The notes below the pieces were generated by a model. The model made no database searches, had not been told where the DNA came from, and saw nothing but the letters and a program-made list of their open reading frames with translations. A program made the position numbers and the translations under genes. DNA of 35,523 nt from Lachnospiraceae bacterium (lineage in GTDB: Bacteria > Bacillota > Clostridia > Lachnospirales > Lachnospiraceae), in NCBI GenBank assembly GCA_022771765.1, contig JALELN010000099.1:1-35523 (forward strand), read 5' to 3'. Positions 1 to 32,538 of the stretch are shown piece after piece; the first letter of the stretch is position 1, and every line of letters begins with the position of its first letter.

Positions 1-207
1 TGCGAGAGCTATAATGCAAGGTATTTTGAGGAACATGGGATGAGCGTGTGGGCTCAGACAATAGATGAGATGGTACGTCAGGCCGATAGAATTCTGGAAG
101 ATAATGTGGTGGGATTAAAGATGACCGAATGCCAGCAGCAATGGATCAATCCCCGGGCGGCAGCAGATATCTGCGACCTCGCGGAGCAGCTGGCAGCGCA
201 AACGTAG
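1..207 (+). CDS. C-terminal fragment of a MurG/MGDG-synthase-like glycosyltransferase (truncated by window start)
   Basis: Frame 1 is open from base 1 to TAG at 205-207 (CESYNARYFEEHGMSVWAQTIDEMVRQADRILEDNVVGLKMTECQQQWINPRAAADICDLAEQLAAQT). Resembles the C-terminus of GT28/MGDG synthase-type enzymes. Confidence 0.5.
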   Translation, partial: CESYNARYFEEHGMSVWAQTIDEMVRQADRILEDNVVGLKMTECQQQWINPRAAADICDLAEQLAAQT

Positions 208-380
208 ACAGGCGATTGCGAAACTTATTCATAACGTGAACAGGAAATGTGAGACACAATGTGTCAGGCAGTGCACTTTGGAGCGGCTGGTACTTAGTGC
301 CCGTATTTTGGTCACTTATGTACCACTGCCAGCGACAAGTAGCGGGAGCGTGCCTGCCATACATGTGCTCACATGACCCA

Positions 381-402
381 AAACGCAACGTAAATAGTTG
401 CG
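381..402 (-). terminator. Rho-independent terminator downstream of prs
   Basis: On the minus strand, CGCAAC-TATTTAC-GTTGCG followed by TTTT, just after the prs stop. Confidence 0.55.
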
Positions 403-413
403 CAATTGCCTAA

Positions 414-1601
414 TTAGTGATGCTCCAGCTCGCCGTTCGTGTATGAGGCAACGATCTTCTTGATCTTGTCGTAAGGGTTCAACAGCTCGCTTAAGGAAGC
501 GTTGTGGTTTAAGGTGTCGATGATATAGGCAATATATTTGCTCATATCGCAGCTGATATAGTAGTCGCGGCTCAGCATTTCCTCAGACTGGTAAATCAGG
601 TTGGTTGTGAGAACACGGTAAATGATGCCTTTTTCCACAGCTTCATCAAATTTCGCAAAGCCGTTTGTGAACAGCCCGAAGGTGGAAATGACGAAAATAC
701 GTTTTGCCTTTCTCTTTTTCAACTCAGTTGCAACGTCAATCATACTCTCACCGGAAGAGATCATGTCATCGATGATGAATACATCCTTGTCCTCGACAGA
801 TGAGCCCAGAAATTCATGGGCAATGATCGGGTTACGTCCGTCAATGATGCGGCTGTAATCGCGGCGCTTGTAGAACATGCCTACATTGATGCCCAACACG
901 TTGGCCAGATAGACAGCACGATCCGTACCACCTTCATCCGGGCTGATGATCATCATGTGGTCGTTGTCAAATTTCAGGTCATCTACATTCAGGCAGAGTG
1001 CCTTCACAAACTGGTATGCGCAGGTGACAGACTCAAAGCCGTGCAGGGGAATCGCATTCTGTACACGAGGGTCATGTGCGTCAAAGGTGATGATGTTTTC
1101 TACACCCATATCTACCAGCTCCTGTAATGCCAGTGCACAGTCTAAAGACTCTCTGGTGGATCGTCTGTGTTGGCGGCTCTCATAGAGAAACGGCATAATT
1201 ACATTAATGCGTTTTGCCTTTCCGCTGGAAGCGGCGATGATGCGCTTCAAATCCTGATAATGGTCGTCGGGAGACATGTGGTTGATTTCGCCGCACATTT
1301 TGTAGGTCAGGCTGTGGTTGGTGATATCAAGCATAATATATAAATCATCTCCGCGCACAGATTCCTTGATCGTTCCCTTTGCCTCTCCGTTTCCAAAGCG
1401 GGGGAGAGAGTGGTCAATCAGGTAGCTGTCACGCTGATAGCCCTTGAATGCAATGTCATTCGGGTGAAGCTGCTGCCTGCTGGAGCGCCATTTTACGAGA
1501 TACTGATCCACTTTTTGACCAAGTTTCTCGCTGCTCTTTAAGGTGATAAGTCCCAGCTTACCATGAGGGATAGATTCTAATTGAATTTCTTCGTTCGGCA
1601 T
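414..1601 (-). CDS. prs: Ribose-phosphate pyrophosphokinase (long form, 395 aa)
   Basis: Contains YESRQHRRSTRESLDCALALQELVDMGVENIITFDAHDPRVQNAIP and the PRPP loop VFIIDDMISSGESMIDVATELKKR. Confidence 0.85.
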   Translation of the reverse strand: MPNEEIQLESIPHGKLGLITLKSSEKLGQKVDQYLVKWRSSRQQLHPNDIAFKGYQRDSYLIDHSLPRFGNGEAKGTIKESVRGDDLYIMLDITNHSLTYKMCGEINHMSPDDHYQDLKRIIAASSGKAKRINVIMPFLYESRQHRRSTRESLDCALALQELVDMGVENIITFDAHDPRVQNAIPLHGFESVTCAYQFVKALCLNVDDLKFDNDHMMIISPDEGGTDRAVYLANVLGINVGMFYKRRDYSRIIDGRNPIIAHEFLGSSVEDKDVFIIDDMISSGESMIDVATELKKRKAKRIFVISTFGLFTNGFAKFDEAVEKGIIYRVLTTNLIYQSEEMLSRDYYISCDMSKYIAYIIDTLNHNASLSELLNPYDKIKKIVASYTNGELEHH

Positions 1602-16625: not shown

Positions 16626-18386
16626 TTGAATAAGGATAAGCAGAACAATTTTAAGCGGGAAACAATAGGGAAGGTGCTGCGTTATGTGAGTGGCTATTGG
16701 TATTATCTGGCTGCGAGTATTCTGCTGGCGCTGGGAGTGGTTGTGCTGACGTTGTCAGTGCCGCTTTTAACCGGTGATGCAATTGATTGTATTGTCGGGG
16801 TGGACAAGGTGAATTTTGCCGCTTTGATAAAGATACTTCGGCTGATTGCGGCGGTTATTATCATCAATAGTATGGCGCAGTGGGCGATGGCGCGTTGCAA
16901 TAACCGGCTTACCTACAGTGTGACAAGAGATATTCGTGATGATGCGGCGGCAAAGCTGCAGCATCTTCCGTTAAAGTATCTGGACGGACATTCGCTCGGA
17001 GACATTACCAGCCGTATGATCTCGGATGTCGACCAGTTTGCCGATGGTCTGTTGCTGGGCTTCACACAGCTTTTTACCGGTGTCATTACGATATTTGGAA
17101 CGTTGTTTTTCATGCTGCGTGAAGATGCGGGGATTGCATTTGTGGTGATCGTCGTGACACCGCTGTCACTGTTTACGGCCAGCTTTATTGCAAAGAAGAC
17201 CTATCATATGTTTCAGGAACAGGCGCGTATTCGCGGGGAACAGACGGCATATATGGATGAGATGGTTCAGAATCAGAAGGTTGTTCAGGCCTACGGGCAT
17301 GAGGAAGAGACCCAGGAGGAATTTGACGAGATCAATGACCGGCTGGAGAAGTGCTCGAAAAAGGCTGTGTTTTTCTCCTCTCTGACAAATCCGAGTACCC
17401 GGTTCGTAAACAATATCGTGTATGCTGCAGTAGCGGTATTTGGTGCGTTGTCTGCAGTGGCAGGCAATCTGACGGTTGGTCAGCTCTCATGCTTTTTGAA
17501 TTATGCGAGCCAGTATACCAAGCCTTTTAATGAGATTTCCGGTGTGATTGCAGAACTTCAGAATGCGATTGCCTGTGCAGCGCGCGTTTTTGAACTGATG
17601 GAGGAACAGCCCGAGCTTGCTGAGGATACGGACGCCGTGCGGCTTTCTGATGTAGAGGGTTATGTGGATTTGGAGCATGTGTATTTTTCTTATACAGACG
17701 AACAGCGCCTTATTGAGGATTTTAACCTGCATGTGAAACCGGGACAGCGTATTGCTATTGTCGGTCCCACCGGCTGCGGGAAGACGACGCTGATCAATCT
17801 GCTCATGCGTTTTTATGATGTCAGGTCAGGTAAAATATGCGTGGATGGTACAGATATCCGCCATGTGACGCGGGAAAGTCTGCGGGAGAGCTACGGTATG
17901 GTGCTGCAGGAGACATGGCTGCATTCCGGCACGATCCGTGAAAATATCTGCATGGGAAAGCCGGATGCCACCGAGGAAGAGATGATTGCAGCGGCGAAGG
18001 CGAGCCATTGTCACAGTTTTATCAAACGGTTGCCACAGGGCTATGACACTCCGATGGGTGAGGATGGCGGAGGACTCTCCCAGGGGCAGAAACAGCTGCT
18101 TTGTATCGCGCGTGTCATGCTGTGTCTTCCGCCGATGCTTATTTTAGATGAGGCGACCAGCTCGATTGATACGCGCACGGAACTGAAGATCCAGAATGCG
18201 TTTGCGACGATGATGCAGGGAAGGACAAGCTTTATTGTGGCGCACCGGCTGTCAACGATTCAGAGTGCGGATGTGATTTTGGTTATGAAGGATGGTCATA
18301 TTATTGAGCAGGGGAATCACGATGAACTGCTTGCTGCCGGAGGCTTTTACGCCACCCTGTATAATAGTCAGTTTGTAACAATTTAG
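16626..18386 (+). CDS. ABC exporter subunit (TMD-NBD), canonical ATPase motifs
   Basis: Walker A GPTGCGKTTLINLL, signature LSQGQKQLLCIAR, Walker B LILDEATSSID, switch VAHRLSTIQ. TTG start after GGGAGGTG. Confidence 0.92.
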   Translation: MNKDKQNNFKRETIGKVLRYVSGYWYYLAASILLALGVVVLTLSVPLLTGDAIDCIVGVDKVNFAALIKILRLIAAVIIINSMAQWAMARCNNRLTYSVTRDIRDDAAAKLQHLPLKYLDGHSLGDITSRMISDVDQFADGLLLGFTQLFTGVITIFGTLFFMLREDAGIAFVVIVVTPLSLFTASFIAKKTYHMFQEQARIRGEQTAYMDEMVQNQKVVQAYGHEEETQEEFDEINDRLEKCSKKAVFFSSLTNPSTRFVNNIVYAAVAVFGALSAVAGNLTVGQLSCFLNYASQYTKPFNEISGVIAELQNAIACAARVFELMEEQPELAEDTDAVRLSDVEGYVDLEHVYFSYTDEQRLIEDFNLHVKPGQRIAIVGPTGCGKTTLINLLMRFYDVRSGKICVDGTDIRHVTRESLRESYGMVLQETWLHSGTIRENICMGKPDATEEEMIAAAKASHCHSFIKRLPQGYDTPMGEDGGGLSQGQKQLLCIARVMLCLPPMLILDEATSSIDTRTELKIQNAFATMMQGRTSFIVAHRLSTIQSADVILVMKDGHIIEQGNHDELLAAGGFYATLYNSQFVTI

Positions 18387-18437
18387 AACAGGTCGGAGCG
18401 GTACCGCGCAGACCGTGAGAACATGATTCAGTAGTAC

Positions 18438-18473
18438 AAAAATGCCATTGCAAAGCAATTTTCATGCATTTTT
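18438..18473 (+). terminator. Terminator-like hairpin after the ABC operon
   Basis: AAAAATGC-(ATTGC-AAA-GCAAT nested)-GCATTTTT. Confidence 0.55.
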
Positions 18474-18476
18474 GCA

Positions 18477-18507
18477 ACGGATCTGTGAAGGTACTGAACA
18501 GATCCGT
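18477..18507 (+). repeat. Copy 2 (best copy) of dispersed hairpin
   Basis: ACGGATCTGT-GAAGGTACTGA-ACAGATCCGT: perfect 10-bp arms and an 11-nt loop. Confidence 0.75.
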
Positions 18508-21438: not shown

Positions 21439-21465
21439 TAGGACAAACAGCATAAAATAATATCC

Positions 21466-21607
21466 CTTATTCAGAGTGATGGAGATACATAGGATCTGTG
21501 AAGTCACGGCAACCCCATGATTGGAAGGTGCCAACCTGAGCGAGAAATCGAACAATAAGAGGATTTGATACCGCAATCAATCCGCTTATTTCAAGTGGAT
21601 TTTTTTT
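21466..21607 (+). ncRNA. SAM-I (S-box) riboswitch with terminator
   Basis: Aptamer CTTATTCAGAGTGATGGAG...GTCACGGCAACCCC...AAGGTGCCAACC...GAGAAATCGAACAATAAG. Terminator AATCCGCTT-ATTTC-AAGTGGATT-TTTTTT. Located upstream of metK. Confidence 0.95.
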
Positions 21608-28830: not shown

Positions 28831-28890
28831 TAGGCACTAGCTGGACACAATCCTAATAAATAATAGAATAATCGTAATGATTTTGCGTTG

Positions 28891-29191
28891 AAGAGGAATA
28901 GTACGGAACGGACGTGCCTTACAGAGAGGAGATCAATGCTGAGAGATCCCCGGTGACGAGTCCCGGAACCTGCCTCGGAGCTTTGTGCGAGCGCTTTCGG
29001 GCAGTCGAAGCACAACGTGGCAGCCGCGTTAAGGGTGAATCGAGTGTATGTATGTGAGAGAAGATACAGGTCAGATCGGGATAAACAGAATGTTGCCTGT
29101 GAGAACGGATCGCGTCACATATATGAACAAGGGTGGTACCGCCGAGAGAATCGGTCCCTGTGTGAGGGATTGATTGTTCCGGCGGTTTTTT
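28891..29191 (+). ncRNA. T-box riboswitch (tRNA-Pro responsive) with terminator
   Basis: AGTA at 28900, stem I AGAGAGGAGATC...GCTGAGAG, GAA-CCT-G specifier at 28966-28971, T-box AAGGGTGGTACCGC at 29129-29142, terminator ACCGCCG...CGGCGGTTTTTT. Confidence 0.93.
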
Positions 29192-29260: not shown

Positions 29261-30700
29261 ATGGCAAAGGAAAAGAAATTAGTAGAGCAGATCACCTCCA
29301 TGGACGAGGATTTTGCGCAGTGGTACACGGATGTCGTAAAGAAAGCAGAACTGATCGATTATTCATCTGTCAAGGGCTGCATGATCATCAAGCCCGCAGG
29401 CTATGCGATCTGGGAGAATATCCAGAAAGAGCTTGACCGTCGCTTCAAAGAGACCGGCGTGGAGAATGTATACATGCCGATGTTCATCCCGGAGAGTCTG
29501 CTGGAGAAGGAAAAGGATCATGTGGAGGGCTTCGCGCCGGAGGTGGCATGGGTGACCCATGGTGGACTGCAGCCGTTGCAGGAACGCTTGTGTGTGCGTC
29601 CCACATCCGAGACGCTGTTCTGTGATTTTTATAAAAACCTCATTCATTCTTATCGTGACCTGCCGAAAAACTATAATCAGTGGTGTTCGGTTGTGCGCTG
29701 GGAGAAGGAGACAAGACCGTTCCTCCGCTCCCGTGAGTTTTTGTGGCAGGAGGGACACACGATTCACGCAACCGCGGAGGAGGCGCAGGAACGTACTCTG
29801 CAGATGCTGAATGTGTATGCAGACTTTTTGGAGGAAGAGCTGGCAATCCCTGTGATCAAGGGACAGAAGACCGAAAAAGAGAAGTTTGCCGGCGCTGAGG
29901 CAACTTACACGATCGAGGCGCTCATGCACGACGGAAAAGCGCTTCAGTCCGGTACAAGCCACAACTTTGGTGACGGTTTTGCCAAGGCTTTTGATATTAC
30001 TTATACAGATAAAAACAACCAGCTTGTACATCCGTTCCAGACTTCATGGGGCATGACAACCCGTCTCATCGGCGCAATCATCATGGTACACGGAGACGAT
30101 TCCGGTTTGAAGCTGCCGCCGCATATTGCGCCGGTACAGGCGATGATCATTCCGATCCGCCAGCAGGCAGAGGGCGTCTTGGACAAAGCAAAGGAAGTAC
30201 TTGAGGCACTTGGCGCGAATGGCATCCGCGCGAGACTGGATGATTCCGATAAGTCTCCCGGCTGGAAATTCTCCGAGCAGGAGATGCGTGGAATTCCTGT
30301 CCGTATTGAGCTGGGACCGAAGGATATCGAGGCAGGTCAGTGTGTCGTTGTCCGCCGCGATACGAGGGAAAAAATTGTCATGGGATTGGACGAGGTTGCT
30401 GAGAAGCTGCCGGAGCTGTTAGAGACGATTCAGAAGGATATGTTCGAGCGCGCAAAGGCACATCGCGATGCTCATATTACCGATGTGACCACCTATGGCG
30501 CCTTCAAGGATGCGGTGGAGAACAAGCCGGGCTTTATCCGCGCAATGTGGTGTGGTGATCAGGCCTGTGAGGATAAGATCAAAGAGGAGACAACGGCGAC
30601 CTCGCGCTGTATGCCCTTTGAGCAGGAGAAGATTTCAGATGTATGTGTCTGCTGCGGCAAACCCGCAAAGAAGCTTGTTTTCTGGGGCAAGGCGTACTAA
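29261..30700 (+). CDS. proS: Prolyl-tRNA synthetase (archaeal/eukaryal-type, 479 aa)
   Basis: [76 protein letters not shown]. Confidence 0.96.
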
Positions 30701-30893
30701 TTTGCAATTCTCTGCTGCCAGACAACGGATTGCGTTAGGCTATCTCCGCGTGAACCCGTCGCACAAACGGCTGCCAGATGCTGTTGCACAGAGTGCGGAC
30801 GCGTAATTCACAAATTGTCACCTTGCTCAGTTAGGTGAAATGGAGAGCCTGCATTTATGTTTTTCGTAGTGGAGATTTCCGCGCCTAAGTCCG

Positions 30894-31171
30894 CCCGGAG
30901 TATTTGGCAGGTCGTTTATGCGACCGAATGAGTATAGAGCAGGGGATGCAGCAAGTGTGAATATGGCTGTGACCTTTGTATGGCGAAGTGCGAGCGCAAA
31001 GATAACCTTTTGGTAATATAGCTGGAAGTCCCCGGCTATGTGTGTGAAAGACACATCGAGCCGGGACTGAAGGGACAGCGAGGCACCGCCATGCAATCGG
31101 AGCAGTCCATATCGCACTTGCTGCGACCCTTTCTTATATTTGTGGAGCATAACCGACTGGCAATCTCCGGG
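30894..31171 (+). ncRNA. Candidate large structured RNA between proS and cca (family not identified; strand inferred)
   Basis: Nested complementary arms: CCCGGAG 30894-30900 / CTCCGGG 31165-31171; GCAGCAAGTG 30948-30957 / CACTTGCTGC 31115-31124; ATATGG 30961-30966 / CCATAT 31107-31112; hairpins GGTCG-TTTATG-CGACC and AGTCCCcGGCT-ATGTGT...ACACAT-CG-AGCCGGGACT. Confidence 0.55.
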
Positions 31172-31212
31172 TGAATGAAGGCACCGCAAAAATGTAACGA
31201 TAAGGAGCATGC

Positions 31213-32538
31213 ATGAGAATAGAATTACCGGATCACGTTAAATTTATCCTGCACACATTAGAGGAAAACGGCTACGAGGGCTATGCGGTCGGCGGCTGTG
31301 TGCGTGACGCGCTGCTGGGGCGTGTTCCTCAGGACTGGGATATCACTACGAACGCGAAGCCGCTGCAGGTAAAGGAGCTGTTTCGCCGAACGATCGATAC
31401 CGGTCTGCAGCACGGTACAGTGACGATCATGCTGGATCACACCGGCTATGAGGTGACGACCTACCGCATTGACGGCGTGTATGAGGACGGCAGACATCCG
31501 AAAGCGGTGAGCTTTACCGGAAGCCTTTCGGATGATCTCATGCGCCGTGATTTCACGATCAATGCGATGGCGTACAACGAAACAGAGGGACTGGTGGATC
31601 TCTTTGGCGGAAGGGAGGATCTGGAAACAGGCGTGATCCGCTGTGTCGGAGAGCCGAAAGAACGATTTGCGGAGGACGCGCTTCGGATGATGAGGGCGAT
31701 CCGCTTCTCTGCGCAACTCGGGTTTACGATCGAAGAACGCACCTTTGAGGCGATACGTGAACTGGCTGCTACGATCCGAAAAATCAGTGCGGAGCGGATT
31801 CAGACGGAGCTGCTAAAAACATTGACCAGCGCGCATCCGGATGATGTCCGGCTCTTTTATGAGACTGGCTTGAGCCGGTGTTTTCTGCCGGAACTGGATC
31901 ACATGATGGAGACAAACCAGCACAATCCGCATCACTGTTACAGTGTCGGTGAGCACACGCTGCACAGTCTTACGGAGGTGCCGCCGGATAAGGTGCTGCG
32001 GCTGGCAATGCTTCTTCACGACGTGGCAAAACCGGTCTGCAAAACGATGGATGAGGAGGGGATCGACCATTTTCACGGGCATCCCGTGCAGGGTGCCGAG
32101 ATGGCGAGAAAGATTCTGCGGCGATTGAAAATGGACAATGAGACGACTGCGCGGGTCACACAGCTGATCCGATGGCATGACGACAATCCTCCGCTCACCG
32201 AACGGAATGTGCGGCGCGCGGTCTGCCGGGTCGGTGCGGCGCAGTACCCGGATATCTTTGCGGTCAAACGTGCGGATATCCGTGCGCAGAGTGACTATCA
32301 AAAAGAAGAAAAACTGCACTATGTGGACGATTATGAGGCGCTTTATCAACAGATTCTGGAGAAGAGACAGTGCCTGTCCATCCGGGAGCTGGCGGTGAAT
32401 GGCGCAGATCTTCTGGCGGCAGGGGTGCCGCAGGGCAGGGAAATCGGTGAAAAGCTGCATGAACTGTTGGAGCTTGTGCTGGAGCGGCCGGAGTGCAACA
32501 CGAGAGAGTATCTGCTCTCACAGATCTATAAGGAATAA
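31213..32538 (+). CDS. cca: CCA tRNA nucleotidyltransferase / polyA polymerase family with HD domain
   Basis: YAVGGCVRDALLGRVPQDWDITTNAKP, RRDFTINAMAYN, RFAEDALRMMRAIRFSAQLGF, LLHDVAKP. Confidence 0.95.
   Translation: MRIELPDHVKFILHTLEENGYEGYAVGGCVRDALLGRVPQDWDITTNAKPLQVKELFRRTIDTGLQHGTVTIMLDHTGYEVTTYRIDGVYEDGRHPKAVSFTGSLSDDLMRRDFTINAMAYNETEGLVDLFGGREDLETGVIRCVGEPKERFAEDALRMMRAIRFSAQLGFTIEERTFEAIRELAATIRKISAERIQTELLKTLTSAHPDDVRLFYETGLSRCFLPELDHMMETNQHNPHHCYSVGEHTLHSLTEVPPDKVLRLAMLLHDVAKPVCKTMDEEGIDHFHGHPVQGAEMARKILRRLKMDNETTARVTQLIRWHDDNPPLTERNVRRAVCRVGAAQYPDIFAVKRADIRAQSDYQKEEKLHYVDDYEALYQQILEKRQCLSIRELAVNGADLLAAGVPQGREIGEKLHELLELVLERPECNTREYLLSQIYKE

Follow-up and report, generated by a model that had tools for sequence, protein, structure and literature searches.

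The small intergenic repeats BOX, RUP and SPRITE of Streptococcus pneumoniae are multi-copy, modular and strongly folding, and occur in few related species (PMC3049150). They are thought to be non-autonomous mobile elements; SPRITE is terminator-like, and BOX can be co-transcribed with its neighbours (PMC3049150). The locus described here lies between proS and cca in a Lachnospiraceae bacterium (genome G000; related genomes carry similar handles), in a contig stretch of 35,523 nt that is called the window below. The proS-cca gap is read, with a probability of roughly 0.75, as holding a copy of F1, a small interspersed repeat that forms hairpins, is specific to the genus and is here enclosed by the arms of another repeat, F2. 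On this reading F1 is a modular element of the BOX/RUP/BIME kind, probably mobile and non-autonomous.

Fold of the proS-cca region

The identity of the flanking gene products as ProS and CCA was confirmed with Pfam. The features of the gap are as follows.

30701..31212, plus strand: proS-cca intergenic region, 512 nt, with BLAST and covariance model (CM) repeat matches inside; seven relatives have only about 10-110 nt between the two genes
30736..30785, minus strand: partial F2 (5′ half), inverted with respect to the main element; from a CM R2 match at 30621-30785, minus strand (E 2.6e-5), convincing in its 5′ part alone; its low end extends into proS
30900..30924, plus strand: F2 5′ arm, enclosing F1; agrees at 24/25 bases with L143, an F2 copy elsewhere in this genome
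30941..30962, plus strand: F1 5′ site-specific arm, pairing with 31113-31131; not similar to other copies' arms by BLAST
30963..31112, plus strand: F1 conserved core (model R1, 151 positions), supported by covariation and a CM R1 score of 141.3 bits (E 2.6e-31), the window copy being one of the 16 used to build R1 and the BLAST matches to other copies being independent of R1
30970..30995, plus strand: core helix, 5′ strand, with conserved TGTGAC, GGCGAAGTGCGAGCG and internal-loop GA bases; its partner is 31078-31102, with 94% of cells paired
31027..31068, plus strand: F1 terminal hairpin (helices 5 and 6), with 96-98% of cells paired
31078..31102, plus strand: core helix, 3′ strand, with conserved CAGCGAG, CACC and GCAATCGGAG
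31113..31131, plus strand: F1 3′ site-specific arm, pairing with 30941-30962; likewise not similar to other copies' arms by BLAST
31146..31164, plus strand: F2 3′ arm, enclosing F1; 19/19 identical to the F2 copy in L143

The segment 30890-31180 has a folding energy of -142.8 kcal/mol, against -89.6 +/- 5.6 kcal/mol for dinucleotide shuffles (z = -9.45), and the whole 512-nt gap folds with z = -7.16 against shuffles. The initial annotation had proposed a nested architecture, and most of its stems are there: the outer stem CCCGGAG-t-ATT (30894-30904) / AATCTCCGGG (31162-31171), the long-range stem GCAGCAAGTG..ATATGG (30948-30965) / CCATAT..CACTTGCTGC (31107-31125), and a strong inner hairpin, which is placed at 31027-31068. 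Two smaller hairpins fared worse. The proposed CTTTG/CAAAG hairpin (30974-31001) is contradicted by the covarying fold, which pairs 30976-30985 with 31087-31096. The proposed hairpin GGTCG-TTTATG-CGACC (30910-30925) found no support and competes with a long-range pairing of 11 nt between 30911-30921 and 31147-31157, which is 91% complementary and is an arm of the F2 repeat.

An Rfam search of the kind that the annotation had suggested, run as cmscan on 30690-31220, matched no family at E up to 10, on which ground a known RNA family was rejected. The eleven loci carrying F1-F4 likewise gave no Rfam match at E up to 0.5. Two known elements of the window are picked up with the same library, both above the Rfam gathering threshold: the T-box leader of proS at 28879-29162 and a SAM riboswitch at 21464-21561.

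Protein coding was also considered and rejected. It had been stated that the gap holds no credible open reading frame, and this holds: a 127-codon minus-strand frame across the region has no Pfam match. Moreover, the conserved AAGTGCGAGCG hardly varies at any base, even where a change in the open-looking frame would be synonymous, while around it the F1 copies differ from each other.

Copy number and distribution of F1

The first searches found F1 at six places in G000, five of them beyond the window copy, at 13 places in G009 and at further places in G001, G002 and G007. BLAST with a G009 copy as query gave 31 matches within that genome, and model R1 gave 41 matches in six of the ten genomes of the genus. 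One of these genomes, G008, contributes a 45-nt match that looks like a simple hairpin and was therefore left out of the F1 count; about 38 good copies in five of the ten genomes result, an 84-nt match in G000 (C209) being doubtful. Because the genomes are all fragmented and repeats break assemblies, these numbers are lower bounds. The copies are similar to one another, mostly shorter than about 200 bp and placed at separate intergenic sites, as in a small interspersed repeat. Many are partial, tandem or nested, and the conserved core bases lie mostly in internal loops (GYGAC, GTGCGAGCG, CAGCGAGAC and GCAAYCGGAGC).

In a sample of 299 genomes covering 298 genera of the family, F1 was found in this genus alone. 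In keeping with this restriction, a 26-base core pattern searched against 85,462 GTDB species representatives matched a single one, MAG SUG1317. IMG/VR, plasmids and phages gave no matches, and a viral, phage or plasmid origin was rejected on that basis.

Several variants were seen among the copies. An insert of about 45 nt (ACCTACCGAACTGCCACTGGCAGTTCGCCACGGATGCATGGC) occupies the loop of the F1 terminal hairpin in L003, L014, L053 and L140, in two species, and a similar module lies upstream of the F1 copy in L130. G009 carries tandem F1 copies (L120, L121 and L119), one unit per roughly 197 nt.

Genomic context and the proS-cca site in relatives

F1 copies sit between genes in either orientation. 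In a tally of 3′-side neighbours of about 165 aa or more, 11 are co-directional with F1 and 10 opposed. The genes next to the copies are ordinary ones with no relation to each other (chorismate synthase, uvrC, hemN-like, mur ligase, LysR and CLC channel genes). In both G002 and G009, hemN-like genes have F1 at their 3′ end, in opposite orientations. This freedom of orientation and lack of relation among neighbours argue against a leader or riboswitch; a fixed same-strand position upstream of related genes, as in a cis-regulatory RNA, was not found for F1.

In the window, the element lies directly upstream of cca on the same strand, as a cis-acting leader or attenuator of cca should. Such a role is nevertheless very improbable: the relatives whose junction was read have no F1 in front of cca, elsewhere F1 lies before, after or antiparallel to genes of unrelated function, and the gap offers no terminator-like match beyond a single 5-bp stem, close to chance expectation. 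As a conserved function, a riboswitch or cca leader is contradicted by the gaps of the relatives and by the contexts of the other copies, and was rejected.

In the seven relatives with both the proS and cca ends readable (G007, G008, G003, G004, G006, G005 and G001), the gap measures about 10-110 nt and carries no F1-like sequence, which implies that some 400-500 nt were gained at this locus. For four other copies (L141, L139, L144 and L140), too, the orthologous sites are shorter or free of the element. The initial annotation, which proposed a large structured RNA as a candidate for the proS-cca gap, had named among its grounds for refutation a lack of homologous sequence in related genomes and arm changes without compensation. 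The two now point in different directions, as the relatives lack the sequence at this site while the arms do change compensatorily. A class tied to this gap is unsupported, the sequence being missing there in all seven relatives; the data describe a dispersed, multi-copy repeat that is free in orientation and composed of at least two nested families.

The relatives are about 80-85% identical in DNA at the compared loci, so that the exact ends of F1 cannot be placed; with this divergence no target-site duplication was definable at the empty sites. Self-comparison of tandem and recent copies, such as those of G002, which share at least 269 nt at 95% identity, gave no clean unit ends or duplications.

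Nesting of repeat families

By sequence, the outermost stem in the window belongs to F2, with the F1 core inside its arms. The matches of these arms to the L143 copy are far above chance: 30900-30924 scores 45 against a best of 28 in 1000 shuffles, and 31146-31164 scores 38 against a best of 22 in 1000 shuffles. The partial, inverted F2 upstream is supported by 30743-30791, which has 86% identity to an F2 copy beside the F1 core copy of G007, and F2 copies paired in inverted orientation are likewise present in G007 and G001 (L206 and L207). F2 encloses a third family, F3, in three copies (L143, L212 and L213). No F2 was found outside the genus among 250 genomes of the family. Different modules are thus combined with one another, F1 in F2, F3 in F2 and F5 beside F1 in G009.

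The other families are as follows. F3 (GATTTTGCCCGACCGAGCAAG ... GCGACGAGGGWAGGGGAATCGAGCAA), seen in L139, L205, L212, L213 and L143, makes up the interior of a terminator-like hairpin at one site shared by G000 and G007, where its orientation differs, and lies within F2 at other places. F4 is a repeat of about 145 nt (L140:6677-6823) present at many places in G003, G008 and G001 with 77-92% identity. F5 is a palindromic intergenic repeat that folds with z = -5.28 at window positions 207-420; related copies directly precede F1 in G009 (L118, L119, L122 and L125) and are also found in G002 (L149) and G008 (L210). An intergenic segment at window positions 18375-18506 has copies 81-84% similar in G001 (L202 and L219) and is possibly one more repeat family.

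Site-specific arms and covariation of the core

Between genomes, BLAST similarity ends at the F1 core, and the arms are specific to the site in sequence. Arms are nevertheless significantly complementary in nearly every copy outside G009, as in L140 (GGGAGACAGCAGGG / CCCTGCTGTCTCCC) and L138 (GGCAAGCAGCG / CGCTGCTTGCC); the recent copies in G009 have arms in common. Terminal inverted repeats common to the copies, the mark of a MITE, were not found between genomes. For this reason, and because the relatives are too diverged for target-site duplications to be placed, F1 is not filed as a MITE.

Mismatches in the arms were counted with a scoring that treats both DNA strands alike. Outside G009, G.T outnumbers A.C by 37 to 18 (p = 0.014, a weak test as the copies are related); within G009 the counts are 19 and 18. 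The corresponding figures are 15 to 3 for F3 and 23 to 17 for F2. The excess outside G009 hints at pairing of one strand, as RNA would need.

In the core, 93.9% of paired cells are standard pairs across 44 aligned F1 copies, an alignment that was fitted to the model and favours the structure. Among 38 core pairs in the same copies, 27 have changed on both sides, a number that none of 500 shuffles reaches, although copies within one genome are related and these counts are not independent. The covariation score is 0.292, against 0.021-0.051 when the partners are slid. Even in an unfitted MAFFT alignment of 14 copies, 28 of 52 pairs have changed on both sides. Taken with the folding z-score and the empty cmscan, the covariation over the 44 copies bears out the earlier description of the region as large, structured and outside Rfam. 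Covariation of the kind that marks structured RNA is thus present, and it fits RNA, single-stranded DNA or homogenisation of the arms alike. Mismatches in the core helix, such as the GA/GA ones to either side of two loops, are kept across copies and not erased.

These observations bear on whether the copies form a structured RNA family that has spread by duplication, either as RNA genes acting in trans or binding protein (as a scaffold or sponge, for instance) or as RNA-processing signals. Strong covariation and conserved internal-loop bases would be expected of it, as would GA/GA mismatches that a purely self-correcting palindrome should lose; the modest G.T excess in arms outside G009, together with the conserved loop bases, is what selection on an RNA strand should leave. 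Against it stand the random orientation to genes, the absence from half of the congeners and from all other genera tested, the numerous partial, tandem and nested copies, and the proS-cca gap, in which no promoter-like site was found. On balance an RNA family of this kind is unlikely.

Orthologous sites and the maintenance of the palindromes

At the chorismate-synthase locus, G007, G008 and G001 have a plain terminator hairpin. In G000 (L141:5969-6200), the whole of that terminator hairpin makes up the 3′ arm of F1, and the 5′ arm is its inverted copy. The terminator resembles the conserved 3′ core motif (CCCGAGGGCAATGAAGC in G007, CCCGAGCGCAATGAAGC in the G002 copies), so that it could be the target of the element or, in the other genomes, the remnant of a deletion. 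Parsimony favours an insertion in G000; a deletion between CGCCCG direct repeats would equally yield the observed picture. Between G000 and G007, F2 at the uvrC locus and F3 at an ABC-transporter locus are inverted, as would be expected from recombination between inverted arms.

A process at the DNA level, template switching or gene conversion, may be what keeps the arms matched, with the core merely lying in the apex and selection on structure needless outside the core. Arms that are unique to each site and still pair suit this account, as do the chorismate-synthase arms, of which the 3′ one is a terminator already present in element-free relatives, and the opposite orientation of F2 and F3 cores at the G000/G007 orthologous sites. 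The conserved core-helix mismatches, which should have been erased, and the strand-asymmetric G.T excess outside G009, unexpected from a DNA-level process, tell against it. Such maintenance is a serious though tentative possibility, and its probability overlaps that of the preferred reading because the two are compatible.

Mobilisation by a Y1 transposase, as in REP-type elements, is not supported by distribution: neither G000 nor G007 has a Y1 transposase (PF01797), and across the genomes the presence of these enzymes does not follow the number of copies. A bolder proposal is that mobile hairpin elements target hairpins that already exist, be they terminators or the stems of other such elements, and restore the partner arm from a copy of neighbouring sequence, each insertion producing a nested fold; L141 would be the type case. 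It is a speculation with rather low odds.

A mobile interspersed repeat remains the preferred reading, and the following sequence of events would be in keeping with it. F1, F2, F3 and others would be non-autonomous elements, mobile now or formerly, inserting into intergenic DNA and into one another's hairpins. Their folded form may be kept because the folded core, as RNA or single-stranded DNA, is recognised by a copying or recognition machinery or by a host protein. Lying on the same strand in a gap with no promoter-like site, the window copy is presumably read through in the proS-cca transcript, where the giant hairpin could lower or decouple cca expression or be a substrate of RNase III. 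Any such influence on cca would be a side effect and not the reason for the presence of F1.

Comparison with known systems

Strong folding and covariation alone can flag interspersed repeats as "novel structured RNAs", and copy number, orientation and empty sites need to be checked as well. The locus exposes a genus with several nesting repeat families that have conserved cores and self-complementary arms, and makes the origin and upkeep of nested palindromes testable in terms of RNA-level selection, a hairpin-targeting transposase or template switching.

F1 resembles the large ornate bacterial RNAs GOLLD, ROOL and OLE and the raiA RNA in being large, structured and non-coding, and differs from them in having no Rfam match at E = 10 and in being dispersed and independent of orientation. 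Like MITEs and Correia-type elements, it is a short non-coding palindrome in gene gaps, present or absent at orthologous sites (PMC10969869, PMC3049150); unlike them, it showed no terminal inverted repeats conserved between genomes. No target-site duplication was found at the empty sites of the rather diverged relatives, and the search for Y1 (PF01797) identified no parent transposase in G000. REP and BIME palindromes associated with Y1 (RAYT) transposases (PMC2817692) are likewise extragenic, mosaic and often arranged in inverted pairs, whereas the units here are about 150-250 nt long instead of a short palindrome and no Y1 transposase was found in the genome of the window; the enterobacterial BIMEs are a further object of comparison. 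Mitochondrial repetitive or double hairpin elements, which are organellar unlike F1 and are likened to it by features and not by sequence, have also differentially invaded intergenic regions of close relatives (PMC2800124). The likeness to BOX, RUP and SPRITE, again one of features and not of sequence, extends to size, intergenic sites, copy number, modularity, folding and narrow host range (PMC3049150). However, BOX strings together boxA, boxB and boxC modules (PMC3049150), whereas the present repeats nest as complete hairpin elements inside one another, and their arms, in distinction from BOX, RUP and SPRITE, differ from site to site and yet pair.
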